Source: Tetragenococcus koreensis
GTDB lineage: Bacteria; Bacillota; Bacilli; Lactobacillales; Enterococcaceae
NCBI RefSeq assembly: GCF_003795145.1
Contig: NZ_CP027786.1
Coordinates: 2,418,001 to 2,482,000 of the forward strand
Length of the DNA: 64,000 bases
Reading direction: 5' to 3'
This document shows, piece by piece, positions 44,005-57,803 of this stretch. The notes under the pieces are model-generated. The model searched no databases and was not told the DNA's origin. It was given only the letters and a program-made list of their open reading frames with translations. Position 1 is the first letter of the stretch. The number at the start of each line of letters is the position of its first letter. A program made the position numbers and the translations under genes.

Positions 44005-44115
44005 GGTTATTTCGATTTTATGCTTTATTTATTAGGAAAAAACTGGCAGAATAGAATTAGATAAATAGGAAATAATAATAATTATGTCTCTGAAGGAAAT
44101 GATTTGTTATTATAA
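44005..44115 (+). pseudogene. Relic of the cas2 3-prime end
   Basis: Despite frameshifts and a stop, the stretch reads FRFY, then LLGKNWQNRI, then GNNNNY and a final DLLL before stop. This follows the C-terminus of the intact Cas2 (FYLLGKNWQNRVEQMGNND to VLLL). The leader that follows is also nearly the same as that after the intact cas2. A second cas operon therefore once preceded array 1. Confidence 0.8.
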
Positions 44116-44264
44116 TATGTAATTTGGCGCGAACCGAGGTCACACATAAAATACTAAGTTGGTTCGCGCAAAATTGGTACTATTTTATGAAAAATTACTC
44201 GCTTTTTCCGATTTATTAGGTGATTTTCTAAAATGAAAGTAGTACAAAGCCGCGTATTTTCCGC
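44116..44264 (+). promoter_or_regulatory. Leader of CRISPR array 1
   Basis: About 149 bp closely matching the leader of array 2 (56754-56902), with shared blocks such as AAATACTAAGTTGGTTCGCG and CCGATTTATTAGGTGATTTT. It holds an inverted repeat, GCGCGAACC (44127-44135) with GGTTCGCGC (44161-44169). It should contain the array promoter and the sites used by Cas1-Cas2 for new spacer entry. Confidence 0.75.
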
Positions 44265-47200
44265 GTCGCTCTCTTCATGAGAGCGTGGATTGAAATCGGT
44301 TTCAATTTGCGAATGATGGCAGTGGAAACTTTCGTCGCTCTCTTCATGAGAGCGTGGATTGAAATAAAACAAATTGGCCTTCTGACGTTTTGAAAAAGGT
44401 CGCTCTCTTCATGAGAGCGTGGATTGAAATTGGTAGCGAAATTTATACTGCGTTACGAGGTTATGTCGCTCTCTTCATGAGAGCGTGGATTGAAATAGAT
44501 ATGCCCATGTTGAATTTAAAATATCCGCCGTGCGTCGCTCTCTTCATGAGAGCGTGGATTGAAATCTTTATTGAAGAATTTGTTCGTACACAAATTAATG
44601 TCGCTCTCTTCATGAGAGCGTGGATTGAAATTAAAAAGTCCTTTATTGCTAAAACCATAATGACTTGTCGCTCTCTTCATGAGAGCGTGGATTGAAATTG
44701 GTAGCGAAATTTATACTGCGTTACGAGGTTATCGTCGCTCTCTTCATGAGAGCGTGGATTGAAATCCATTATCGCTAACAGTGAGCAGCAAGCCATGCGT
44801 GTCGCTCTCTTCATGAGAGCGTGGATTGAAATGATACGTTAAAAGCTCGAATTGATGCCGGAGAAAAGTCGCTCTCTTCATGAGAGCGTGGATTGAAATA
44901 AGGAAGTAGTAAGCACCCTATTCGGTTTATTTACGTCGCTCTCTTCATGAGAGCGTGGATTGAAATGTTGGTTATTTATAATACCAATAGAAAAGGTCCG
45001 AAGTCGCTCTCTTCATGAGAGCGTGGATTGAAATTTTAATAATAGCAATTGGAAAAATTCTATAGCGCGTCGCTCTCTTCATGAGAGCGTGGATTGAAAT
45101 CGCTTTGACGTAAAACAAGCCGACCAAAACGCTGGCGTCACTCTCTTCATGAGAGCGTGGATTGAAATAGCACTTTTTTCTAAAGCTTTTAGTATATTTC
45201 CATGTCGCTCTCTTCATGAGAGCGTGGATTGAAATCTTTGTTATCTGCCATGAGTGTTTCTCTCCTTTGTGTCGCTCTCTTCATGAGAGCGTGGATTGAA
45301 ATTTTACTACTCTTTTTGTGATAAAGAGCGGTGGACGGTCGCTCTCTTCATGAGAGCGTGGATTGAAATAAGAGCTGTTCGTACTTTCGGGTCGCCCGAA
45401 TCTTGTCGCTCTCTTCATGAGAGCGTGGATTGAAATTATTTAACGACTCTTTTGGCGAACCTGTCATTTGGTCGCTCTCTTCATGAGAGCGTGGATTGAA
45501 ATTTATGCAGGGAAGAAAACAAGCTCTTTCAGATATAGTCGCTCTCTTCATGAGAGCGTGGATTGAAATAATTTATAAGTTAGCCCATGCTACACTCAAA
45601 CAAACGTCGCTCTCTTCATGAGAGCGTGGATTGAAATTGTTATATAAAAATAATACAAACCTAAACTACCAAGTCGCTCTCTTCATGAGAGCGTGGATTG
45701 AAATAAGATGTCGAGCCGAAAAATCCCGTAAAAGGCCAAGTCGCTCTCTTCATGAGAGCGTGGATTGAAATAAGATGTCGAGCCGAAAAATCCCGTAAAA
45801 GGCCAAGTCGCTCTCTTCATGAGAGCGTGGATTGAAATACTAATAGATGACGAACTTTTTCTGCCTAATTTTGTCGCTCTCTTCATGAGAGCGTGGATTG
45901 AAATCGTGTTGTCGCTTAAGTCATTTACACTGTTGGAGGTCGCTCTCTTCATGAGAGCGTGGATTGAAATAAGATGTCGAGCCGAAAAATCCCGTAAAAG
46001 GCCAAGTCGCTCTCTTCATGAGAGCGTGGATTGAAATTTTACTACTCTTTTTGTGATAAAGAGCGGTGGACGGTCGCTCTCTTCATGAGAGCGTGGATTG
46101 AAATTGTCGAATTAATTGAATCTCATAAATCAAAAGCGGTCGCTCTCTTCATGAGAGCGTGGATTGAAATGATTCGGAAAAGGAAGCACAATTTTATATC
46201 CGATGTCGCTCTCTTCATGAGAGCGTGGATTGAAATAGAAAACATAAACAATGGCTTCGGTGAAGACCAGTCGCTCTCTTCATGAGAGCGTGGATTGAAA
46301 TAAGCCAGTCAGATGACGCCCAAACGTCTTTAAACTGTCGCTCTCTTCATGAGAGCGTGGATTGAAATTTGCACGCCATTGCCGTTTGCCCCTAAGACCA
46401 AATGTCACTCTCTTCATGAGAGCGTGGATTGAAATTTTATAACTATTGTAGATTAATTTTATATTCTTCGTCGCTCTCTTCATGAGAGCGTGGATTGAAA
46501 TTTTTGCCATATTTAAACATCTCCTATATATTGTTGTCGCTCTCTTCATGAGAGCGTGGATTGAAATACTCTTTACAATGACTAGTCGCCCCACAATAGG
46601 TGTCGCTCTCTTCATGAGAGCGTGGATTGAAATGCTATCCCTTTACGAACCTGGCAAGATTGGGAGGTCGCTCTCTTCATGAGAGCGTGGATTGAAATGA
46701 AAATGTTCGCTTGCAAGAAATAAAACCTTATAGTCGCTCTCTTCATGAGAGCGTGGATTGAAATAAATCGTATGTTTAAATAGTTTTCTCTTGGGTCAAT
46801 GTCGCTCTCTTCATGAGAGCGTGGATTGAAATTATGGTAGGCACAGGAATAATGGGAATTATTACTGTCGCTCTCTTCATGAGAGCGTGGATTGAAATAA
46901 CATTTTCTGTGCCTTATTTTTTGCTTGATTCGAGTCGCTCTCTTCATGAGAGCGTGGATTGAAATATCGGATGTATAAACCACATAAACTAATGGTAGAT
47001 GTCGCTCTCTTCATGAGAGCGTGGATTGAAATTAAAAAACTCTTGAAATAGGAGTCACGGTAAGGGGGTCGCTCTCTTCATGAGAGCGTGGATTGAAATT
47101 TAGCATCCTCATAAAACTGGAGCCAAGCTCGTGTTGTCGCTCTCTTCATGAGAGCGTGGATTGAAATATCCAAGCGTCCTAACGCCATACCTTGCCGTTT

Positions 47201-47557
47201 GAGTCGCTCTCTTCATGAGAGCGTGGATTGAAATAAATCGTATGTTTAAATAGTTTTCTCTTGGGTCAATGTCGCTCTCTTCATGAGAGCGTGGATTGAA
47301 ATTATGGTAGGCACAGGAATAATGGGAATTATTACTGTCGCTCTCTTCATGAGAGCGTGGATTGAAATAACATTTTCTGTGCCTTATTTTTTGCTTGATT
47401 CGAGTCGCTCTCTTCATGAGAGCGTGGATTGAAATAATATCATTTACACGTTGTTGGATTTGTTCTTTAAGTCGCTCTCTTCATAAGAGCGTGGATTGAA
47501 ATAAACTAGATAATCCTAGTGACAGTAGGTCCAATATGGTCACTCTTTTCATAAAAG
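44265..47557 (+). CRISPR. CRISPR array 1, type I-C repeat (49 repeats plus one broken)
   Basis: A 32-bp repeat beginning GTCGCTCTCTTCATGAGAGC and ending GTGGATTGAAAT occurs 49 times (44265-47502), with 48 spacers of about 33-37 bp. A 49th spacer and a truncated, mutated repeat follow at 47539-47557. The stem CGCTCTC/GAGAGCG and the TGGATTGAAAT handle match type I-C. Variants: A for G at repeat position 4 in the copies at 45137 and 46404, and an altered loop in the last (47471). Several spacers occur more than once, including a three-spacer block (46765-46933 and 47235-47403). Leader side is left, so the newest spacers are on the left. Confidence 0.97.
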
Positions 47558-47791: not shown

Positions 47792-48067
47792 TTTTTCGGA
47801 TAAAGTTTTCCGATTCCTTTATCCATGATTGGATTCTCGTAGAAAGAATTCCTGATCTATTATCCATCTTTTTATTTTCGGATAAGGGAATGCCAAACTT
47901 TTATTCGTTATCAGCTATTTAAGAGCGTTTAACCGCTATTTTTCCTATTTTCGGATAAAGTTTTTCGATTCCTTTATCCATGATTGGATTCTCGTAGAAG
48001 GAATTCCTGATCTATTATCCATCTTTTTGTTTTCGGACAAGGGAATGTCGGACTTTTATCTGTCATT
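47792..48067. repeat. Pair of about 120-bp direct repeats before cas3
   Basis: Copy 1 (about 47792-47912) and copy 2 (about 47949-48067) share long blocks such as CCTTTATCCATGATTGGATT and GAATTCCTGATCTATTATCC. They differ by scattered substitutions and are separated by about 35 bp. No intact gene is seen. Their origin is unknown; they may be a tandem duplication inside decayed coding sequence. The short open frame on the minus strand through them (47974-48207) is not convincing as a gene. Confidence 0.7.
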
Positions 48068-48136: not shown

Positions 48137-48225
48137 TATTTATAGCTTACGGGGGCGCGGATTGAAATAGGTTTTCCAACTGGATCATTATCAGCTTTTT
48201 TTGTCATCCTTTTCAGGAGCGAAAT
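48137..48225 (+). repeat. Two decayed CRISPR-like repeat units upstream of cas3
   Basis: 48137-48168 ends GCGCGGATTGAAAT, one change from the repeat's 3-prime handle, though its stem no longer pairs. After a 34-bp gap, the normal spacer length, GTCATCCTTTTCAGGAGCG (48203-48221) resembles the first half of the repeat with changes and a lost base, then AAAT. This is probably a remnant of an older array; a degenerate guide unit is possible. Chance similarity cannot be excluded for the second unit. Confidence 0.4.
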
Positions 48226-48409: not shown

Positions 48410-48535
48410 ATATTTTAAATAACGCTTACAATTGATTGCCAGCTAGGATTAGAGATTAAATAATCAAGGCCAAAGAAATAAGTTTGCTATTTGGACATTG
48501 AAACACAAAAATTATGCAGAGAGAAGGGTGAAGTA

Positions 48536-50977
48536 TTGTATGCACACTATGACAAACAAACTGGAAACACTCAATCCTTAGATGTTCATTTATTCAACGT
48601 AGCTCAAAGCGCGGCAGAGGAAGCTAAAGAGATCGGTCAACAAGATGTGGCATTTCTTTGCGGACTTTTTCACGATTTAGGCAAGGCTGATCCAAAATTC
48701 CAGGATAAAATCATTCATCAACGACAAACACATGTAGATCATTCGACTGCCGGGGCAAAGTTTTTATTAGAAAAAATGGGACAAATTCTACAAAAACAGG
48801 TAATAGATAAAGAGAAAATGGAATATTGTGAACCCTTTATTGAGACGGTTTGCTATGTTATTTCCGCGCACCATGGGTTATTTGATATCCCATTAAAAGA
48901 AAATTCGGATTTTACACAGGATGACAAAATAGGTAAGTTATTCAAGAGAATTTCAAACAACTTGGATAAGCATTATAATTTTGAGACAGTTGTGCTGGGC
49001 TTTGCCTCAGAGTTGGAAAAACAATTAAAAAAAGAAAATCAAATGACACTTGAGCAATTGATCTTAAAAGCATTTAATAATTTTTTGTCACTTTGGCAAA
49101 AATTAAACCCTCAAGATGATTCAGAAAGAGATTTTTATACCACATTAATCGTGCGTTTATATCTATCTTTACTTAAGAATGCAGATATTCTTGATACGAT
49201 TAATGCTTATACCAATATCATCGAACCTATGTCGGCACATACATATAGCAAACTTTCTACTCACTATGTAGAGTCTATCGAATGGGTATATGAAAATTAT
49301 CAAAATCCGACGACAGAAATTAATAAAATTCGTACATCTATCGCTAATGAGGCTAAAAAACGTGGTTCGAAAGATTCATCGGGCATCTATCGCTTGAATT
49401 TACCAACAGGCGCTGGAAAAACGCAGCTGAGCATGCGTTATGGGTTTCATCAAATGAACAAACAAGGTAAGCACCGTTTTATTTATATCGCTCCTTATCT
49501 ATCCGTCCTCGAACAAAATGCAGCGGAAATTGAAAAAGTTGTTGGAACAGAGGGCATTTTGGAACATCATTCAAATGTGGTAGATACAGAGAGCAAAGAA
49601 GATGTAGATGGTGATGAAAAAGCGACTGCTTACAAAGACTATTTGATTGATACTTGGGATAGCCCAATCGTTCTCAGTACAATGGTTCAATTATTTCAAA
49701 CATTTTTTAAAGTGAAGTCAGGCAATATTCGGCGCTTTGCTCACTTGATTAATAGTACGCTTATCCTCGACGAAGTCCAGTCTCTACCTCTGGAAGTAAC
49801 CACTTTGTTTAATCTAACGATGAATTTTTTAAGTAGGATTATGAAAGTCAATGTCGTACTTTGCACAGCGACACAGCCCGTTTATGACTCTAGTGGGATC
49901 GATCATCGTATATTGTATGGTGGGTTAAAAAACGAGCCGGCGGATATTATTAACTTGAATGAACAACAGCGACAAGTTTTTGAACGAACAGAAGTTTATA
50001 AGTTTAATGAAGATAATGAAATAGCAAATATTGAAGATATTGCAGATGAAATTGCCAAGCATGAAGATGACTCAATTTTAATCATTTTAAATACTAAAGC
50101 AGCCGTTAAATATTTATATGACTTGGTTAAAGATCGAGATCCACGGCGGTGTTATCATCTATCAACTAATATGTGCGCTAAACATCGCTTGGATATTATT
50201 AAGAATATTAAGGACGAGATTTGTCGAAAAGAGCCAATTATTTGCATCAGTACACAATTAATTGAAGCAGGCGTGGATTTGGATTTTAATCGAGTGATTC
50301 GTTCTTATGCAGGAATTGATTCAATCGTTCAAGCAAGCGGTCGCTGTAATCGTGAGGGGGATAGAGACAAAGGAATTGTACAATTAGTTGATGTAAATAA
50401 TGACCAAGAAAATTTATCTTATTTGAAATCAATAAAAGTTAAAAAAAGAGTGACAGAACAAATTATTGAAGACTTATCTTCACCGGTAAATATTGAGCAA
50501 TTAAATGATGAATTTTTCGAACGTTACTTTGCAGATAGTAAAAAGGAAGATCTTGACTATCCTTTGGGAAAAGATGAACCTACTGTCTATGGTCTGTTAT
50601 CTACAAACGAGAGTCATAACGTAGAATATGTGTCATTGAAACAATCCTTTAAAGAAGCAGGCATAAAAATGGACTTGATTCAAGATCATTCTAAGGGAGT
50701 CATTGTTTATTATGATGCAGATGAGAAATGCGTGCCGCTGATTGAAAATTTGATTGAAACAATTGATCTATTTCAAACTGAATATAATATAGATGATTTA
50801 AAAAGAGTAAAAAACTTATTAAACCAGTTGCAACCTTATACGATAAATATGCGGGTTTCCGATGAAAAGCAGAATGCTCTGATGAGCTACATGGACGGAG
50901 AAATTCTGATTTTACAGCAAAATTTTTATGATAATGAAGTTGGTATGATGGAGAATATGAATGAGTTTATACTATAG
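48536..50977 (+). CDS. cas3: Type I-C CRISPR nuclease-helicase Cas3
   Basis: About 813 residues. The N-terminal HD nuclease domain shows LFHDLGKADPKF and ISAHHGLFD. The helicase domain shows Walker A LPTGAGKTQL, motif II LILDEVQSLP, then CTATQPV and the C-terminal STQLIEAGVDLDF with ASGRCNREG. It unwinds and cuts DNA marked by Cascade. The TTG at 48536 is chosen because GAGAAGGG ends 7 bp before it and homologues begin about at YAHYDKQTG; a TTG at 48491 would add 15 residues without a ribosome-binding site. It is separated from cas5c by a 320-bp regulatory gap, unlike the overlaps of the other cas genes. Confidence 0.94.
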   Translation: MYAHYDKQTGNTQSLDVHLFNVAQSAAEEAKEIGQQDVAFLCGLFHDLGKADPKFQDKIIHQRQTHVDHSTAGAKFLLEKMGQILQKQVIDKEKMEYCEPFIETVCYVISAHHGLFDIPLKENSDFTQDDKIGKLFKRISNNLDKHYNFETVVLGFASELEKQLKKENQMTLEQLILKAFNNFLSLWQKLNPQDDSERDFYTTLIVRLYLSLLKNADILDTINAYTNIIEPMSAHTYSKLSTHYVESIEWVYENYQNPTTEINKIRTSIANEAKKRGSKDSSGIYRLNLPTGAGKTQLSMRYGFHQMNKQGKHRFIYIAPYLSVLEQNAAEIEKVVGTEGILEHHSNVVDTESKEDVDGDEKATAYKDYLIDTWDSPIVLSTMVQLFQTFFKVKSGNIRRFAHLINSTLILDEVQSLPLEVTTLFNLTMNFLSRIMKVNVVLCTATQPVYDSSGIDHRILYGGLKNEPADIINLNEQQRQVFERTEVYKFNEDNEIANIEDIADEIAKHEDDSILIILNTKAAVKYLYDLVKDRDPRRCYHLSTNMCAKHRLDIIKNIKDEICRKEPIICISTQLIEAGVDLDFNRVIRSYAGIDSIVQASGRCNREGDRDKGIVQLVDVNNDQENLSYLKSIKVKKRVTEQIIEDLSSPVNIEQLNDEFFERYFADSKKEDLDYPLGKDEPTVYGLLSTNESHNVEYVSLKQSFKEAGIKMDLIQDHSKGVIVYYDADEKCVPLIENLIETIDLFQTEYNIDDLKRVKNLLNQLQPYTINMRVSDEKQNALMSYMDGEILILQQNFYDNEVGMMENMNEFIL

Positions 50978-50996
50978 AAAATTCTATAGTATAAAC
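50965..50996. repeat. 15-bp perfect inverted repeat over the cas3 stop codon
   Basis: GTTTATACTATAGAA (50965-50979) and TTCTATAGTATAAAC (50982-50996) are exact complements with two bases between. The cas3 stop (50975-50977) lies in the left arm. As RNA it would be a stable hairpin on either strand, without a T-run. It may protect or end both the cas3 mRNA and the minus-strand crRNA-like transcript. Confidence 0.75.
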
Positions 50997-51041
50997 GTCA
51001 TTAAATGTAATATAATTTCAATCCACATAGTTTACTATGAT
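50966..51041 (-). ncRNA. Putative single-unit crRNA-like RNA (CreA/CreR-like) between cas3 and cas5c
   Basis: On the minus strand an extended -10, TGGTATAAT (51056-51048), predicts a start near 51041. The RNA then opens with a hairpin, CATAGT-AA-ACTATG (51039-51026), and TGGATTGAAAT (51025-51015), identical to the last 11 nt of the CRISPR repeat. The repeat stem CGCTCTC/GAGAGCG is replaced by another sequence that still pairs, so structure is kept while sequence is not. The pseudo-spacer begins TATATTACATTTAAT (51014-51000) and runs into the hairpin at 50965-50996. Its first 15 nt match 14 of 15 at a TTC-flanked site over the nearby promoter. By analogy with CreA and CreR RNAs, Cas5c would process it and Cascade would use it to repress that promoter. 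Confidence 0.6.
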
Positions 51042-51091
51042 GAAAAAATTATACCATAAAAAGGTTGCTGTAAAAAATGTATTCACAGTTG

Positions 51092-51125
51092 TTGATTATT
51101 TTTTTATATTAAATATAATATAGAA
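51092..51125 (+). promoter_or_regulatory. Promoter facing cas5c, overlapped by a PAM-flanked target of the crRNA-like RNA
   Basis: TTGATT (51092-51097), a 16-bp spacer and TATAAT (51114-51119). On the minus strand, TTC (51125-51123) is followed by TATATTATATTTAAT (51122-51108), which matches the pseudo-spacer start at all positions except 8 and diverges after 15. TTC is the known type I-C PAM. Binding of Cascade here would cover the -10. Downstream lie two very short overlapping frames (MQKNF at 51144 and an 11-codon frame at 51161) and then cas5c. Confidence 0.6.
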
Positions 51126-51297: not shown

Positions 51298-52029
51298 ATG
51301 TTTAAATCACGAGAATTTTTCGTGAAGTTAAAAGGGAATTATGCTCTTTTTACTAATCCTTCAACGAAAGGAGGCGGTGAAAAAGCAACTTACACTTTAC
51401 CAACTAAACAAGCATTGCAAGGTTGCGTAGATAGTTTGTATTTTAAGCCAACATTTAGAAATGTCATTACTGAAGTGAAAGTGATAAATCAAATCCAAAC
51501 TGAAGTAATTGGGACTAGGGCTTTGCTGGGAAGCGGGAAAGTAAATACGGCAGATCTTAACTATGTTTCATATCTTACTAACGTAGAATATTTGGTGCGT
51601 TTTTACATGACATGGAATGAAGAACGTCCTGATTTAATCAACGATCGGAATCAAAAAAAGCACGAAGCTATTATGGAACGCTCGATTAAAAAAGGAGGTC
51701 GTCGTGATATTTTTCTGGGGACCAGAGAATGTGTAGCTACAGCAGAGTATCTTACCCGGGAAGAATATGAACAAGCAGAAAGTGAGTACGACGGAAAAAT
51801 TCTTTCAATGGGGATTATGTTTCAAGAATTTGAATATCCTACAGAAGATAATCAGCCTCTAAAAAGCTATTTTGCAGATGTGGTAATGAAAGATGGTGTG
51901 ATTCAATTTAAAAAGAAAGAAAATTGCGAAATTGTAAACACACTATCAACCTATAATTTTAAGAATCAACAAGAAATCAAATCAGTTGATAAAGAATTAG
52001 AAGAATATGACGAAATGGAAACGAGGTGA
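51298..52029 (+). CDS. cas5c: Type I-C Cas5c, crRNA-processing and Cascade subunit
   Basis: About 243 residues. In type I-C, Cas5 replaces Cas6: it cuts the pre-crRNA at the base of the repeat hairpin, leaving an 11-nt 5-prime handle, and stays in Cascade. It has the RAMP-like N-terminus REFFVKLKGNYALFTNP, followed by YTLPTKQALQGCVDSLYF, and a Gly-rich IKKGGRRDIFLGTREC segment. ATG 51298 is preferred over GTG 51289, with AAGGAAGG upstream. It leads the cas5c-cas8c-cas7c-cas4-cas1-cas2 operon, likely read from the promoter at 51092-51119. Confidence 0.93.
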   Translation: MFKSREFFVKLKGNYALFTNPSTKGGGEKATYTLPTKQALQGCVDSLYFKPTFRNVITEVKVINQIQTEVIGTRALLGSGKVNTADLNYVSYLTNVEYLVRFYMTWNEERPDLINDRNQKKHEAIMERSIKKGGRRDIFLGTRECVATAEYLTREEYEQAESEYDGKILSMGIMFQEFEYPTEDNQPLKSYFADVVMKDGVIQFKKKENCEIVNTLSTYNFKNQQEIKSVDKELEEYDEMETR

Positions 52030-52034
52030 GGAGA

Positions 52035-53918
52035 ATGGATTTTTTAACGGCTTTGCTACAAGCGTATGACACGAGCACAGAACAAGGATTGGTAGACAAG
52101 CAAGAGGGAAACAATACTATTCTTTTACCTTTATATCACACGAATATGAAATCGCGCGGCAACGATATTATTCAAATTTATTTAACGAAGCAAGGAAAAT
52201 TATCACAGGCAGAGTTTTTGCCTGAAAAAGAGATGACTATTTTTCCAGTTACTAGTGATTCGATCGCACGTTCTGGAAAAAATCCGCCAAGTCATCCCTT
52301 AGTAGATAAAATAAGTTATATTGCTGCAGAAGACAAAGATTTGCATCAGTTATATCTCAATGAATTCAATCGTTGGTATCAAGAAGTAACTGATACAAAA
52401 GTGAAAGAGTTTTTGACGATTATTAAACAATTCATTAGTAAAGAATATTTTCTCGATGAAATTTTAGATAAATTATACGGAAAAGAAAACTATACTCGCA
52501 ACCAATTAGAAGTTCATTATACTGAGGGCAAAAAAAGTAAAAAAGCGGACTTAACTAAGGTCTTTCTAACTTTTGCGATCAACGACTTTAGTGGTTATCA
52601 GACAATAAGTGTGACTAATTTTGTGAAATTACATGAAAATTATATTCGGTATGTGGAAGCACAAGATAGCCCCAGAGGCATTTGTAATATTAGTGGTGAA
52701 GAGCAACAATTAACAACTAAACACCGCGGGCTGCTTGGTAATGCGAAGTTAGTTTCTGTAAGCAATAATAAAGAAACTTATCAAGGCCGCTTCAAAAATG
52801 GAACAGATATTATCCAAATAGGCTATAAAACATCTGAAAAAGTTCATTTGATGTTGAAATATCTACTTGAAAATCAAAATAGCCGGCGCTGGTTAGGCGG
52901 ACAACAGTATTTAGTGAATTGGTTTAGCGATGATATCGCAAATGACAGTCAGTTTGATATTTCTGTTCCAAGTATTGTACCTTTTCCAACTAATCAATCA
53001 ACGAAGCCTAAGGTCGTTTCTTTAGCAAATAAAGAGGTGGGACGATCGTTTATTCTTGGAGAGCAAAAATTTAGCAAAGATGCCAACTATTATGCAGCAA
53101 TTATTGATAAAGCGAGCAATGGTCGTATCTCATTAAAATTTTTCCGGGATTTACAAGCTTCACAATTATTAAGAAACTTGCAGAAATGGCAAATAAGGTA
53201 TTCGTGGGAACGTTATAGTGTACAAGATGAAAAAATACATCCAACAACGCCTTCTCTATGGCAATTTTTGCAAACGGCTTATGGGGTAGAACGTAACGGT
53301 CGGCTTGAGGTGGATAATGATAATTTTAAAAAAGACCAATTTCAAAAACTGGTGGTTAGCTTGATCGATGGTCGTCTACTTCCAGCAAATATTTCTACTG
53401 CTTTGAAAGCCAACATTCGGAAACGTATGAATTACGAGAAAACATGGTTACAAATACAATTTACAACATTAGCAGTTTTTAGTCATAAAAATGGAGAGGA
53501 GCAATTACCAGTGTTAGATAGAGAAAATACCGATCGTTCATATCTCTATGGACGGTTACTGGCAGTATTAGATCGGACAGAAGGAGCAACTTATAATCGG
53601 TCGGAGCCTGATAAACAACGTGTAACTAATGCACAAAAGTTTTGGACTTCTTATACCAACCATCCGGCGAAGACTATGCAAACGTTAATTGAGAAAACAA
53701 AAAGTTATGAAAAAGCGTTAAGAAGCGCTAATCCAGGGCTTTTATTTAAATTAAACAAGGAAAAACAAGAGATTATAAATATACTAAATGATCATTACTT
53801 AAATTCAGCGGATATCAATAAAGCGCTCGATTTTCATTTTATTTTTGGTTACTATGCGGAAACACAATTTTTATTTACTAAAACTGAAAGTGAGGAAGTA
53901 GAAAATGTTAACGAATAA
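52035..53918 (+). CDS. cas8c: Type I-C Cascade large subunit Cas8c (Csd1)
   Basis: About 627 residues, normal for Csd1. This subunit recognises the PAM and recruits Cas3; in type I-C an internal start in its gene is known to give a small Cas11 subunit. Visible segments include SRGNDIIQIYLTKQGKL near the start, RGICNISGEEQQLTTKHRG mid-protein, and FLQTAYGVERNG. ATG 52035 follows GAGGTGAGGAG and lies 5 bp after the cas5c stop. The end overlaps cas7c by 14 bp. Confidence 0.93.
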   Translation: MDFLTALLQAYDTSTEQGLVDKQEGNNTILLPLYHTNMKSRGNDIIQIYLTKQGKLSQAEFLPEKEMTIFPVTSDSIARSGKNPPSHPLVDKISYIAAEDKDLHQLYLNEFNRWYQEVTDTKVKEFLTIIKQFISKEYFLDEILDKLYGKENYTRNQLEVHYTEGKKSKKADLTKVFLTFAINDFSGYQTISVTNFVKLHENYIRYVEAQDSPRGICNISGEEQQLTTKHRGLLGNAKLVSVSNNKETYQGRFKNGTDIIQIGYKTSEKVHLMLKYLLENQNSRRWLGGQQYLVNWFSDDIANDSQFDISVPSIVPFPTNQSTKPKVVSLANKEVGRSFILGEQKFSKDANYYAAIIDKASNGRISLKFFRDLQASQLLRNLQKWQIRYSWERYSVQDEKIHPTTPSLWQFLQTAYGVERNGRLEVDNDNFKKDQFQKLVVSLIDGRLLPANISTALKANIRKRMNYEKTWLQIQFTTLAVFSHKNGEEQLPVLDRENTDRSYLYGRLLAVLDRTEGATYNRSEPDKQRVTNAQKFWTSYTNHPAKTMQTLIEKTKSYEKALRSANPGLLFKLNKEKQEIINILNDHYLNSADINKALDFHFIFGYYAETQFLFTKTESEEVENVNE

Positions 53919-54747
53919 AGTAGATTTTATCGCAACAATTGAAGTACAGAATGCTAATCCAAATGGAGATCCACTCGCTGGTAATATGCCAAGAACTGAT
54001 TCAAACGGTCACGGATTAATTAGCGATGTAGCAATCAAACGTAAAATTCGCAACCGGATGCAAGATCAAGGAAATGAAATTTTTGTAAAATCAAGAGATC
54101 ATGCGGATGATGGGTTTAATTCACTGCAAAAAAGATTTGAAAATGAATTTAACAAAGAGCCAGATGAAGAAGTGGAGAAAAGGTCAAATGAAAAGTGGTT
54201 AGATGTTCGTTCTTTTGGCCAAGTGATCACTTATCAAAACAGATCAATTGGTATTCGTGGCCCTGTCTCTGTTTCCATGGCCAAATCCTTAGATCCTATT
54301 GAAATTACAAGCATGCAAATTACCCGTAGTGCAAATAGTATGGAGCCTAAAGCAGGTTCTAGTCGTTCTTCTGATACCATGGGGACCAAACATTTTGTGG
54401 AGTATGGCGTCTATGTTGTTTATGGTTCGGCAAACGTCTTCTTCTCAGAAAAAACTGGATTTAATGAAGACGATTTGGCTGTCATTAAAGAATCTTTGCT
54501 GAGTTTATTTGCTAATGATGTATCCTCAGCTCGTCCAGAAGGTTCAATGGCAATAAAAGAGCTTTTTTGGTTTACACATTCTAATAAATTAGGAAATGTT
54601 TCTAGCGCAAAAATTCATGATCTACTTGAATATGATGTTTCTTCGGAACACGAAAATTATGAAGATTACCAAATTGGACTTAATCAAGAAAAATTAGCTG
54701 AGTATAAAGACAAAGGATTGCAAGTAGAAATTATTGAAGGGCTGTAA
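53905..54747 (+). CDS. cas7c: Type I-C Cascade backbone Cas7c (Csd2)
   Basis: A 280-residue RAMP protein that forms the helical filament along the crRNA. The N-terminal signature FIATIEVQNANPNGDPLAGN and the RTDSNGHGLISDVAIKRKIR segment are typical of Csd2. A glycine-rich RSIGIRGPVSVSMAKS and MQITRSANSMEP follow. It overlaps cas8c by 14 bp, and cas4 starts 2 bp after its stop. Confidence 0.95.
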   Translation: MLTNKVDFIATIEVQNANPNGDPLAGNMPRTDSNGHGLISDVAIKRKIRNRMQDQGNEIFVKSRDHADDGFNSLQKRFENEFNKEPDEEVEKRSNEKWLDVRSFGQVITYQNRSIGIRGPVSVSMAKSLDPIEITSMQITRSANSMEPKAGSSRSSDTMGTKHFVEYGVYVVYGSANVFFSEKTGFNEDDLAVIKESLLSLFANDVSSARPEGSMAIKELFWFTHSNKLGNVSSAKIHDLLEYDVSSEHENYEDYQIGLNQEKLAEYKDKGLQVEIIEGL

Positions 54748-54749
54748 CC

Positions 54750-55433
54750 ATGAGTTACGTAGAAGATGAATACTTGATGCTATCAGGTATTCAACACTAT
54801 TATTTTTGTAAACGACAGTGGGGCCTGATTCATATTGATCAGCAGTGGGCGGAGAATAGTTATACTGCGGAAGGACAGCAATTACACAAAAAAGCAGATG
54901 ATCCCTATATTAAGGAAAAAAGGAAAGATATGTTTATTTCACGGGCTATTCATGTTTCTTCAAGTTCTTTAGGTTTATCAGGAATCTTAGATGTGGTTGA
55001 GTTTTATAAAGACAAAAATGGTATCTCCTTTCAAGGGAAAAAAGGAAAATGGCAGCCATATATTGTTGAATATAAACGAGGACAGCCCAAAAAAGACAAA
55101 CGAGATGTGATTCAGCTAGTTGCAGAAGTGATGTGTTTGGAAGAAACGTTGGATTGCCAGATTTCAAATAGTTACCTCTTTTATCATAGTGTGAATAAGA
55201 AAATTAAAATAGATATCACAAAAGAATTACGCGATTTAGTTCATGATTTTTCTGCTAAAATGCATTTTTATTATCAACATAAAAAAGTACCTGATGCAGA
55301 ATTTTTTAAAAATTGTCGATTATGTTCACTATATGATATTTGCATGCCGAGAATGAACAAGAGGCCTAAAAATATTGATAACTACATTGAAAATGCTATT
55401 TATAGTGAGGCGGATGTATGCGAAAATTATTAA
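54750..55433 (+). CDS. cas4: Cas4 exonuclease for spacer acquisition
   Basis: A 227-residue RecB-type nuclease with an iron-sulfur cluster. The N-terminal cysteine is in QHYYFCKRQWGLIHID (near residue 20), and the C-terminal three are in CRLCSLYDICMPRM. The nuclease core shows the Asp of SGILDVVEF and the E-x-K of YIVEYKRGQP. It trims prespacers and selects those next to a PAM before Cas1-Cas2 inserts them. It overlaps cas1 by 16 bp. Confidence 0.94.
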   Translation: MSYVEDEYLMLSGIQHYYFCKRQWGLIHIDQQWAENSYTAEGQQLHKKADDPYIKEKRKDMFISRAIHVSSSSLGLSGILDVVEFYKDKNGISFQGKKGKWQPYIVEYKRGQPKKDKRDVIQLVAEVMCLEETLDCQISNSYLFYHSVNKKIKIDITKELRDLVHDFSAKMHFYYQHKKVPDAEFFKNCRLCSLYDICMPRMNKRPKNIDNYIENAIYSEADVCENY

Positions 55434-56446
55434 ATACATTATATATTACCCAAGAAGATTACTACTTATCACGTGAACGAGATAATATTGTCATAAAGCA
55501 AGATGGTAAAATAGTCAACCGATTTCCTTACCGGATTATAGAAAATATTATTTGTTTTTCATACCTAGGTACCTCTCCTTCACTTGTTCAACTATGTAAT
55601 GAAAATAATATAAGTTTGTCCTTTTTAACACCAACTGGTAAATTTTGTGGGCGCTTTGTTGGTATGACAAATGGTAACGTCTTATTACGACGTGAGCAAT
55701 ATAGAATTGCAGATGATGATATACGATCCATTGAATATGCTAAAAGAAGCTTGCTTGCTAAAATTTCTAGCTCGAGAAAGTATGTGTTACGATTTAAACG
55801 TGATCATAGTGGAAAAATAGATGAATCTTTATTTAATAACGTCGACAAAGAGTTATTAAAAAGTATTGAGTTAATAAAACAAGTAAAAGACAAAGATAGT
55901 TTAAGAGGAATTGAAGGGAATGCAGCTAATACTTATTTTAGAGTTTTTAATGATTTTGTATTAGTTAATAAAGATGTATTCCAGTTTAATGGACGAACAA
56001 AGCGACCGCCTCTAGACTGTGTCAATGCTATGCTTTCGTTTGGTTATAGCTTGTTAACAAATGAGTGTCAGTCTGCTTTAGAAACGGTTGGTTTAGATAG
56101 CTATGTTGGCTTTTTCCATACTGATCGTCCTGGAAGAGCGAGTATGGCTTTGGACTTGGTTGAAGAGTTTCGAAGCTATATTGTCGATCGTTTTGTTTTT
56201 TCTTTAATAAATAAGAAACAAGTGTCTAATAAACATTTTGACATAAAAGAGAACGGTAGCGTTTTTTTGAATGATAAAGGAAGAAGTATTTTTATTAAAG
56301 AATGGCAAAATCGTAAGCATACGGAAGTGGTGCATCCATTTATTAATGAAAAAGTAAAATTAATGTTGTTACCCTATGTCCAAGCGCAATTAATGGCAAA
56401 AGCTATTCGAGACGATTTACCAAGTTATCCACCTTTTATGGCGTAA
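55418..56446 (+). CDS. cas1: Cas1 integrase
   Basis: A 342-residue metal-dependent integrase of the Cas1c type. The N-terminal beta domain runs from LLNTLYITQEDYYLS. The catalytic domain has the first Glu in RGIEGNAANTYF and the His/Glu pair in VGFFHTDRPGRASMALDLVEE. It joins spacers to the leader-end repeat together with Cas2. It overlaps cas4 and precedes cas2 by 13 bp. Confidence 0.96.
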   Translation: MRKLLNTLYITQEDYYLSRERDNIVIKQDGKIVNRFPYRIIENIICFSYLGTSPSLVQLCNENNISLSFLTPTGKFCGRFVGMTNGNVLLRREQYRIADDDIRSIEYAKRSLLAKISSSRKYVLRFKRDHSGKIDESLFNNVDKELLKSIELIKQVKDKDSLRGIEGNAANTYFRVFNDFVLVNKDVFQFNGRTKRPPLDCVNAMLSFGYSLLTNECQSALETVGLDSYVGFFHTDRPGRASMALDLVEEFRSYIVDRFVFSLINKKQVSNKHFDIKENGSVFLNDKGRSIFIKEWQNRKHTEVVHPFINEKVKLMLLPYVQAQLMAKAIRDDLPSYPPFMA

Positions 56447-56459
56447 GGAGAGCAAGCCC

Positions 56460-56753
56460 ATGATGATTTTAGTCACTTATGATGTAAATACAGAGACGAA
56501 ACAAGGAAGAAAACGTCTGAGACATGTTGCAAACTTGTGTGTTGATTATGGACAACGAGTGCAAAATTCTGTTTTTGAATGTTCGGTTGTTCCAGCAGAA
56601 TTTGTTGAATTAAAAGGAAAATTAGCTGATATTATTAATCCGGAGCTTGACAGTATTCGGTTTTATTTGTTAGGAAAGAATTGGCAAAATAGAGTAGAAC
56701 AAATGGGAAATAATGATAGCTATGATCCGGATAAAGATGTTTTGCTATTATAA
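56460..56753 (+). CDS. cas2: Cas2 adaptation protein
   Basis: A 97-residue ferredoxin-fold protein that bridges two Cas1 dimers. The start MMILVTYDVNTET holds the conserved Asp, and VQNSVFECSV is also typical. The end LLGKNWQNRVEQMGNND matches the relic in front of array 1. An AAGGAG-type site precedes the first ATG at 56460. The leader and array 2 follow. Confidence 0.95.
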   Translation: MMILVTYDVNTETKQGRKRLRHVANLCVDYGQRVQNSVFECSVVPAEFVELKGKLADIINPELDSIRFYLLGKNWQNRVEQMGNNDSYDPDKDVLLL

Positions 56754-56902
56754 TATATAGTTTTGCGCGAGCCGAGGTCGCACATAAAATACTAAGTTGG
56801 TTCGCGCAAAATTGGTACTATTTTATGAAAATTACTCATTTTTTCCGATTTATTAGGTGATTTTCTAAACCGAAAGTAGTACAAAGCCGTGTATTTTCCG
56901 CG
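56754..56902 (+). promoter_or_regulatory. Leader of CRISPR array 2
   Basis: 149 bp between cas2 and the first repeat, nearly identical to the array 1 leader. An inverted repeat, TTTTGCGCGAGCC (56761-56773) with GGTTCGCGCAAAA (56799-56811), pairs with one G-U pair. This repeat may end cas2 transcription or be bound during spacer integration. Confidence 0.75.
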
Positions 56903-57803
56903 GTCGCTCTCTTCATGAGAGCGTGGATTGAAATATCCATTGATCTTTATGCTATGTCATCTGTGGGTTGTCGCTCTCTTCATGAGAGCGTGGATTGAAA
57001 TGATCTCTTTCATCCGTTTATCTATCTCAGATTTTGTCGCTCTCTTCATGAGAGCGTGGATTGAAATGATAACACCTTTACTTGTGGGGTTAACCCACTT
57101 TCCGTCGCTCTCTTCATGAGAGCGTGGATTGAAATTCTGTCTTCCATCACGTTATTCAAAGCTCCTTGTGTCGCTCTCTTCATGAGAGCGTGGATTGAAA
57201 TACCAGTTCAGCGTGCTGTCCCTCAACCTTAAATTGTCGCTCTCTTCATGAGAGCGTGGATTGAAATATAAATTTGTTGGCCATATTATGATTCATGTCT
57301 ATGTCGCTCTCTTCATGAGAGCGTGGATTGAAATGATATAGACAGTAAATGGAATCAGTGCGATTCTGCGGTCGCTCTCTTCATGAGAGCGTGGATTGAA
57401 ATAGTTTCTGTGCTTTCAGGGATTTTATCTAAACCACGTCGCTCTCTTCATGAGAGCGTGGATTGAAATCCGACGAAAGGGGATCAATAATGACACGAGC
57501 AGAAGTCGCTCTCTTCATGAGAGCGTGGATTGAAATTGTGTTTAAAATTTTGAAATTGGAATGTGTCACATCGTCGCTCTCTTCATGAGAGCGTGGATTG
57601 AAATCCTTTGAAATTGGGATCATTAGCTAAAATCGTTTCGTCGCTCTCTTCATGAGAGCGTGGATTGAAATATTCCATTTGAAGATTAACGTTCCTGTAG
57701 GACTTGTCGCTCTCTTCATGAGAGCGTGGATTGAAATACTCGTAAACCTGCATTGCGCAAGCCAATTTTAGGTCGCTCTCTTCATGAGAGCGAGGATTGA
57801 AAT
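56903..57803 (+). CRISPR. CRISPR array 2, type I-C repeat (14 repeats, 13 spacers)
   Basis: The same 32-bp repeat as array 1, starting right after the leader behind cas2. The 13 spacers are about 34-36 bp and I see no spacer shared with array 1. The last repeat (57772-57803) carries one change (GAGGATTG for GTGGATTG), the usual decay at the old end. All other repeats are uniform, so this array looks active. Confidence 0.97.

Follow-up and report, generated by a model that had tools for sequence, protein, structure and literature searches.

A probable CreR-like, one-repeat guide RNA element in the type I-C cas locus of Tetragenococcus koreensis, with relatives in other cas loci

Background

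Why does one solitary, degenerate repeat of a clustered regularly interspaced short palindromic repeats (CRISPR) system stand between cas3 and cas5c in Tetragenococcus koreensis, and what does the short sequence that follows it recognize? The question is raised by a 64,000-nt stretch of contig NZ_CP027786.1 (assembly GCF_003795145.1, positions 2,418,001 to 2,482,000), referred to in its full length as the window, for which a preliminary description had proposed a CRISPR RNA (crRNA)-guided self-regulation unit resembling CreA or CreR. Based on the parts, the target match, the conservation and the co-variation observed in the window and in related loci, we propose, with a probability of about 0.84, that the window element is a type I-C CreR-like autorepressor of the effector operon. 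CreR autorepression is stated for types I-B, I-E and V-A (PMC13131331), and a wide distribution among type I systems is described (PMC12737573, section 3.2).

Results

The guide element and its target are made of the following features, in window coordinates:

51048–51056, minus strand: extended −10 TGGTATAAT of the predicted guide-RNA promoter, with a transcription start expected near 51041
51026–51039, minus strand: pseudo-repeat hairpin CATAG-TAAA-CTATG, with a 5-bp stem and a 4-nt loop, abutting the handle
51015–51025, minus strand: 11-nt type I-C 5′ handle TGGATTGAAAT, identical to that of the array repeats
50997–51014, minus strand: pseudospacer, 18 nt up to the palindrome, whose first 15 nt (51014–51000) pair with the target
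50965–50996, no strand assigned: 32-nt palindrome that follows the pseudospacer and overlaps the cas3 stop, the probable RNA 3′ end (terminator-like or capping hairpin)
51108–51122, minus strand: target (pseudo-protospacer), a 14/15 match with its mismatch at guide position 8
51123–51125, minus strand: TTC protospacer-adjacent motif (PAM)
51092–51119, plus strand: predicted promoter facing cas5c, TTGATT-16 nt-TATAAT (10 of 12), called by a promoter scan

The succession read earlier on the minus strand, namely the extended −10, a perfectly paired hairpin unlike that of the arrays and the exact handle, was confirmed, and the position of the palindrome is here corrected to 50965–50996, overlapping the cas3 stop. 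The window contains 63 occurrences of the handle 11-mer, where 0.18 would be expected; 62 of them are inside the two arrays and this one alone is solitary, so that the element presents itself, as described for CreR, as a degenerate repeat outside arrays, beside cas genes, with an exact handle retained. The stem of the pseudo-repeat pairs perfectly and differs in sequence from the array repeat stem (CATAG/CTATG against CGCTCTC/GAGAGCG), in agreement with the earlier claim of a stem replaced with its pairing kept. In the predicted fold of the RNA from 51046 to 50960 (−25.3 kcal/mol, z −6.8), the guide stays open and is flanked by a hairpin on either side. Only one pseudo-repeat followed by a hairpin is found, instead of the two-repeat mini-CRISPR that is the usual form of CreR. 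An Rfam search of the region returned one sub-threshold snoRNA match, located within cas3 and outside the guide element.

The target lies 97 nt from the handle, the guide match is lost after 15 nt, and the predicted −10 of the cas5c-facing promoter (51114–51119) falls within the target, all of which agrees with the match, PAM and location initially claimed. Thus, the guide is partly complementary to a predicted cas promoter, as in CreR, next to TTC, the type I-C PAM (PMC7913775). The target is the sole TTC site reaching at least 12/15 in the window, and dinucleotide shuffles of the gap reached 14/15 in 0 of 10,000 cases and 13/15 in 6. Over the whole 2.73-Mb genome, it is the only PAM + 15-nt site with at most one mismatch, two others having 2 mismatches (a TTC site near a transposase-like sequence, as judged by eye, and a site with TTG as PAM).

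Related cas loci were then compared. Of 105 genomes of the family, 22 gave a match to Cas5c; the corresponding figures were 31 of 395 for the order, 53 of 398 for the class and 93 of 398 for the phylum. The sets overlap, and weak matches may represent other Cas5 types. We kept 125 loci, window included (77 Bacilli-centred, 34 from other Firmicutes and 14 from plasmids), all with recognisable cas genes even if cas3 or cas5 is absent in some; three of them come from named genomes (Streptococcus sanguinis SK355, S. henryi and S. thoraltensis). Not retained were 12 class genomes, for weak matches, 55 of the 89 genomes newly added at the phylum level, most of them for the same reason and one because a contig end cut it, and 52 of the 66 plasmid records found, the other records giving the 14 plasmid loci. 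A first selection by handle and stem, partly made by hand, gave 44 sites, of which 34 reach 12/15 or better at a TTC site located between −250 and +450 nt. The main search ignored the stem and took all solitary handles with up to 2 mismatches outside arrays and cas genes (n = 544), comparing the 17 nt that follow each handle with all sites within 600 nt, with positions 6 and 12 masked.

A solitary handle whose guide matches a nearby TTC site at 12/15 or better was found in 43 of the 125 loci, window included. Two pairs of loci (L090/L091 and L125/L126) have the same guide and target within each pair, and distinct guide-target pairs amount to 41; the strict pairs (13/15) number 35, excluding the window (12/15 in this scoring). 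The target of L071 (far upstream, in a small open reading frame (ORF)) and the element of L130 (a 2-mismatch handle, 12/15) are doubtful and were kept in the counts.

The choice of PAM and the quality of the handle both set these pairs apart. Among the 544 handles, a site of at least 13/15 within 600 nt lies beside TTC in 37 cases, beside the next best trinucleotide in 5, and beside the other 63 together in 41. By handle quality, such pairs were found for 27 of 43 exact handles, 5 of 43 with one mismatch and 3 of 447 with two, compared with 1 of 430 random nearby positions (L091 and L126 being dropped from these counts). Within the 35 strict pairs, the guide matches its target in 35 cases at each of positions 1–5, 8 at position 6, 31–35 at positions 7–11, 9 at position 12, 34, 34, 35 and 30 at positions 13–16, 18 at position 17 and at most 13 later, bearing in mind that the scored positions are high partly through selection and that the unscored positions 6 and 12 could pass for background. 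The mask itself could be circular, and therefore each of the 136 possible pairs of masked positions was tried: the top five (35–37 handles) each include 6 or 12, the median over the 136 being 23, which shows that the data themselves favour positions 6 and 12. Type I Cascade leaves each sixth guide base unpaired, as known from type I-E structures.

The same register is visible in the way guides and targets change together. In a family of nine loci whose guides begin with ATATA, comparison of all locus pairs showed that a guide difference comes with a target difference in 91 of 92 cases and guide identity with target identity in 394 of 412 at the paired positions, whereas at positions 6 and 12 guide and target vary independently (both differ in 24, guide only in 16, target only in 17, neither in 15); these pairwise counts are not independent events. 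Over the 41 pairs, guides agree with their own target at 13.3 of 14 positions and with the targets of other loci at 5.6, own targets having been chosen for their fit. Guide and target are thus retained as a pair in related loci, as for CreR, and the comparison with related type I-C loci called for by the preliminary description gave the opposite of its refuting outcome, independent variation of handle, hairpin and target: guide and target co-vary, with a TTC PAM and a 6-nt mismatch register. Taken together, the dominance of TTC, the register and the co-change of guide and target therefore constitute a signature of Cascade-guided recognition.

These observations bear directly on the view that the element is a CRISPR array relic, i.e., a degenerate repeat left by a deleted array, whose target match arose by chance in AT-rich DNA. 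A single repeat in a gap of 21% GC is what such a relic would look like; against it stand the 0/10,000 shuffles, the TTC preference, register and co-change across loci, and a stem that still pairs despite differing in sequence from the array, all of which make a relic very improbable. For the class as a whole, chance or decay was rejected by means of shuffles, guide swaps, PAM choice, masks and random positions.

The elements also share their anatomy. A stem of at least 5 bp abuts the handle in 25 of 41 cases against 4.1 in shuffles, a comparison that serves as control because stems are picked for pairing, and no stem of at least 4 bp is present in 10 of 41. The stem varies with pairing kept, since pair 2 is A-T in 14 cases and G-C in 15, and pair 4 takes all four Watson-Crick forms. 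Of the 41 distinct elements, 14 have the exact extended −10 TGNTATAAT ahead of the pseudo-repeat, and 38 have a stem of 8 pairs or more after the pseudospacer; single-base shuffles gave 0.28 and 16.3, respectively. Because of these extended −10 and stem frequencies, the class can be described as a promoter, one pseudo-repeat, a short guide and a hairpin. The CATAG stem is common to the window, S. sanguinis, S. henryi and L069 (CATAG/CTATG stems occurring in L004, L005 and L069), and in the window and L069, the two of these in which arrays were seen, the array repeats of one differ from those of the other, and both differ from the CATAG stem.

In the Bacilli-centred set, an element with a target is present in 39 of 77 loci, 22 of them in the gap, all on the minus strand, and 17 upstream, 10 on the minus and 7 on the plus strand; gaps of at least 200 nt hold an element in 22 of 29 cases. 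This recurrent place within the cas operon, with a matching target, is difficult to reconcile with a Racr-like decoy, i.e., a solitary repeat of mobile-element origin acting as an RNA anti-CRISPR. Racrs are indeed solitary repeats, and RacrIC1 inhibits type I-C (PMC10651486), which is the attraction of such an origin; they are encoded by viruses or plasmids, away from cas genes, whereas the solitary repeat of the window sits inside the cas operon. In addition, exact-pattern scans of viral contigs for two element forms gave 0 and 1 matches, and the lone match, between listed ORFs of a large phage contig, looks coding (by eye) if TAG is read through. We consider the decoy hardly credible.

The position of the targets further bears on a CreTA-like addiction module. 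The 170 nt ahead of cas5c would then encode a small toxin RNA, made from the targeted promoter and repressed by the guide, and a cell that lost Cascade would be harmed. The I-F creTA is built of the same parts and likewise occupies the interval between cas3 and the effector genes (PMC10097628); in the window, where the guide matches a predicted promoter facing cas5c, a long leader separates this promoter from cas5c. However, the only ORFs seen in these 170 nt are two very short ones, of 5 and 11 codons, neither with an evident strong ribosome site (partly judged by eye). In 14 relatives, the target lies 46–130 nt before the cas5 match and therefore leaves little room for a separate gene; in gap-class loci, the target is followed by a cas gene unless other sequence has been inserted. 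Hence we regard the module as improbable: of the CreA/CreR-like unit first proposed, the CreR-like regulator half is well supported, while the CreA/CreT toxin half found no positive support in the window.

Some elements may be aimed elsewhere. Fourteen more solitary sites with an exact handle core lacked a local TTC target, and their whole fetched loci were then searched. The guides of L069 and L082 match TTC sites (14/15 and 13/15) located 53 and 122 nt before cas3, respectively, and not near the element, and, judging from these sequences, both may encode a regulator aimed at cas3. Pairs with a non-TTC PAM were seen in L073 and L079 (14/15 beside CTC, mismatch at 6) and in L184 (14/15 beside TTT, mismatches at 6 and 12), and L084 has a far-off TTC site at 13/15, without a stem. 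The remaining sites of the 14 gave no match at 13/15 across the fetched locus, L104 reaching 11/15.

Two loci associate a pseudo-repeat with other genes. In L128, about 3.9 kb upstream of cas5c, the guide matches a TTC site at a distance of 44 nt, scoring 15/15 with positions 6 and 12 as its only mismatches, and the pseudo-repeat lies just upstream of a 252-amino-acid DUF3800 gene (Pfam), 1.3 kb before cas3, which is a candidate for a Cascade-guarded cargo or toxin gene. In L097 (6511–6750), a 79-amino-acid ORF with a DUF4062 domain, possibly truncated, lies between the targeted site and cas5c and is a cargo candidate beside the pseudo-repeat.

The window holds a complete type I-C locus, in the order array 1, cas3, cas5c-cas8c-cas7c-cas4-cas1-cas2 and array 2 (NCBIfam names):

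44265–47502, plus strand: CRISPR array 1, with 49 exact handles
48491–50977, plus strand: cas3
51298–52029, plus strand: cas5c, the crRNA-processing Cascade subunit (TIGR01876)
52026–53918, plus strand: cas8c (TIGR01863)
53905–54747, plus strand: cas7c (TIGR02589)
54750–56753, plus strand: cas4, cas1c and cas2
56903–57737, plus strand: CRISPR array 2, with 13 exact handles

Array 1 contains an identical 235-bp duplication (46732–46966 and 47202–47436) by which several spacers are copied, and the sequences preceding the arrays (44024–44265 and 56662–56902) are 84–93% alike, as expected of two leaders with a common origin. The interval between array 1 and cas3 carries a 119-bp direct repeat, 92% alike (47793–47911 and 47948–48066), and a second solitary handle-like stretch, CGGATTGAAAT (48158–48168, plus strand), without a stem and without a target.

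Discussion

The transcription, processing, binding, repression and feedback that we infer would proceed as follows. A minus-strand RNA starting near 51041 would carry one degenerate repeat and end at the 50965–50996 hairpin; Cas5c would cut it after the repeat hairpin, leaving the 11-nt handle, and Cas5c, Cas7c and Cas8c would assemble on the processed RNA as on a crRNA. The loaded Cascade would bind the TTC-flanked site over the cas5c-facing promoter and block RNA polymerase, so that cas5c-cas8c-cas7c, and probably cas4-cas1-cas2 too, would be repressed in a negative feedback on Cascade. Repression rather than cutting would be expected because some 15 nt of pairing would not suffice to form a full R-loop or to license cleavage by Cas3. 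When array crRNAs or anti-CRISPRs draw Cascade away, the repression would be relieved.

Several observations weigh against this reading and account for the confidence that it leaves. For the guide RNA, the promoter scan called no site at the guide promoter, for which no −35 was found; the terminator scan found no classical terminator in the region, the palindrome being without a T-run; and the predicted fold runs the repeat stem 4 pairs into the handle. On the target side, the promoter scan gave 5 sites in the region against 3.4 in shuffles, which is weak evidence alone, and three promoter-like sites face cas5c, one of which, TTCACA-17-TATATT (51082–51110, plus strand), scores as high as the predicted promoter covered by the target. 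Over the survey, 16 of the 35 targets tested are no more than 20 nt away from the best predicted promoter, against 7.4 expected, a moderate excess only. With this detector, no element with a target was found in 38 of the 77 loci of the Bacilli set, 31 of the 34 from other Firmicutes and 13 of the 14 from plasmids. The other 8 genomes of the genus searched gave no cas5c match (1 of 9, the window's own), and variation at close range around the window is for this reason not readable. Finally, when the 17-nt mask used in the survey is applied, the score of the window is 12/15, a value reached by 6 of 300 shuffled guides and by 0 of 43 guides of other loci, and its mismatch falls at position 8, which is matched in all 35 strict pairs. 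In the I-F CreA, which pairs 17/20 with its target with mismatches at 6, 11 and 18, changes at 2–5, 7–9 and 13–17 abolish function, and the 7–9 stretch covers the window mismatch (PMC10097628).

These last points would also fit a different history, in which the autorepressor class is real but the window copy is decaying and, given its position-8 mismatch and 15-nt match, no longer represses. Its 12/15 score is among the lowest of the survey, like those of L006, L086, L130, L137 and L204, and it is the sole one of the 41 distinct pairs mismatched at 8. Since the extended −10, stem, handle, PAM and 14/15 pairs are intact and the target is the best site in the genome, we hold this decay to be unlikely, and we retain the reading of the window element as a probable CreR-like autorepressor. 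Note that the probabilities assigned to this reading and to its rivals are not exclusive.

Autorepression of the CreR kind is itself already known, and Liu et al. 2023 is reportedly the primary CreR paper. Likewise, a survey of crRNA-like standalone-repeat elements by Shmakov et al. 2023 is said to have predicted them across many type I loci, their guides being directed at cas promoters, and it may already list type I-C and the 6-nt register. In type II-A, a single-guide form of the trans-activating CRISPR RNA (tracrRNA) is used for RNA-guided autorepression of cas genes, which resembles the present case in this respect and differs in being based on Cas9 and derived from tracrRNA. CreR is a crRNA-like RNA encoded with cas genes, with limited complementarity to a cas promoter and autorepression as its outcome (PMC13131331, PMC12737573), a likeness that would extend here to the presumed repression. 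The window system differs in being of type I-C, where Cas5c processes crRNA without Cas6 (PMC7684278), and in having one pseudo-repeat and a strong hairpin instead of the two-repeat mini-CRISPR, a form that we do not treat as defining for CreR because a one-repeat CreA is reported (PMC9458426). CreTA, known from the I-F system of Acinetobacter and the I-B systems of haloarchaea, has in common with our element a pseudo-repeat with a short pseudospacer and repeat degeneration (PMC9458426), and the I-F CreTA furthermore sits in the cas3-csy1 gap with the guide mismatches given above (PMC10097628); unlike CreTA, the window shows no toxin in our analysis, a target in the predicted cas5c-facing promoter and one repeat, where the I-F creA has two. 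No type I-C autorepression by a crRNA-like RNA appeared among the matches listed in our literature searches, which is not proof of absence. The elements described here stand out by a one-repeat, hairpin-ended make and an unusually clear guide register.

A broader proposal, to which we give even odds, is that Bacilli type I-C loci carry a built-in governor of distinct make, i.e., a one-repeat, hairpin-ended guide gene located in the cas3-cas5c gap or before cas3, the evolution of which would record the guide bases that Cascade reads (1–5, 7–11 and 13–16) and those that it ignores (6, 12 and 17 onward). Some copies, aimed at the region before cas3 from elsewhere (L069, L082) or lying beside cargo genes (DUF3800 in L128, DUF4062 in L097), would then be guard modules.

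Conclusions

If the proposed autorepression is true, natural guide-target pairs would reveal the pairing that Cascade needs for stable binding without cutting, and the surveyed loci supply dozens of ready test cases. The natural short guides would also be offered for I-C-based gene repression, and studies of I-C operon promoters that ignore the guide element could miss a regulator. Altogether, RNA-guided CRISPR autorepression would be extended to type I-C, which is among the commonest subtypes, with the prediction that occupation of Cascade by crRNAs or anti-CRISPRs raises I-C cas levels.

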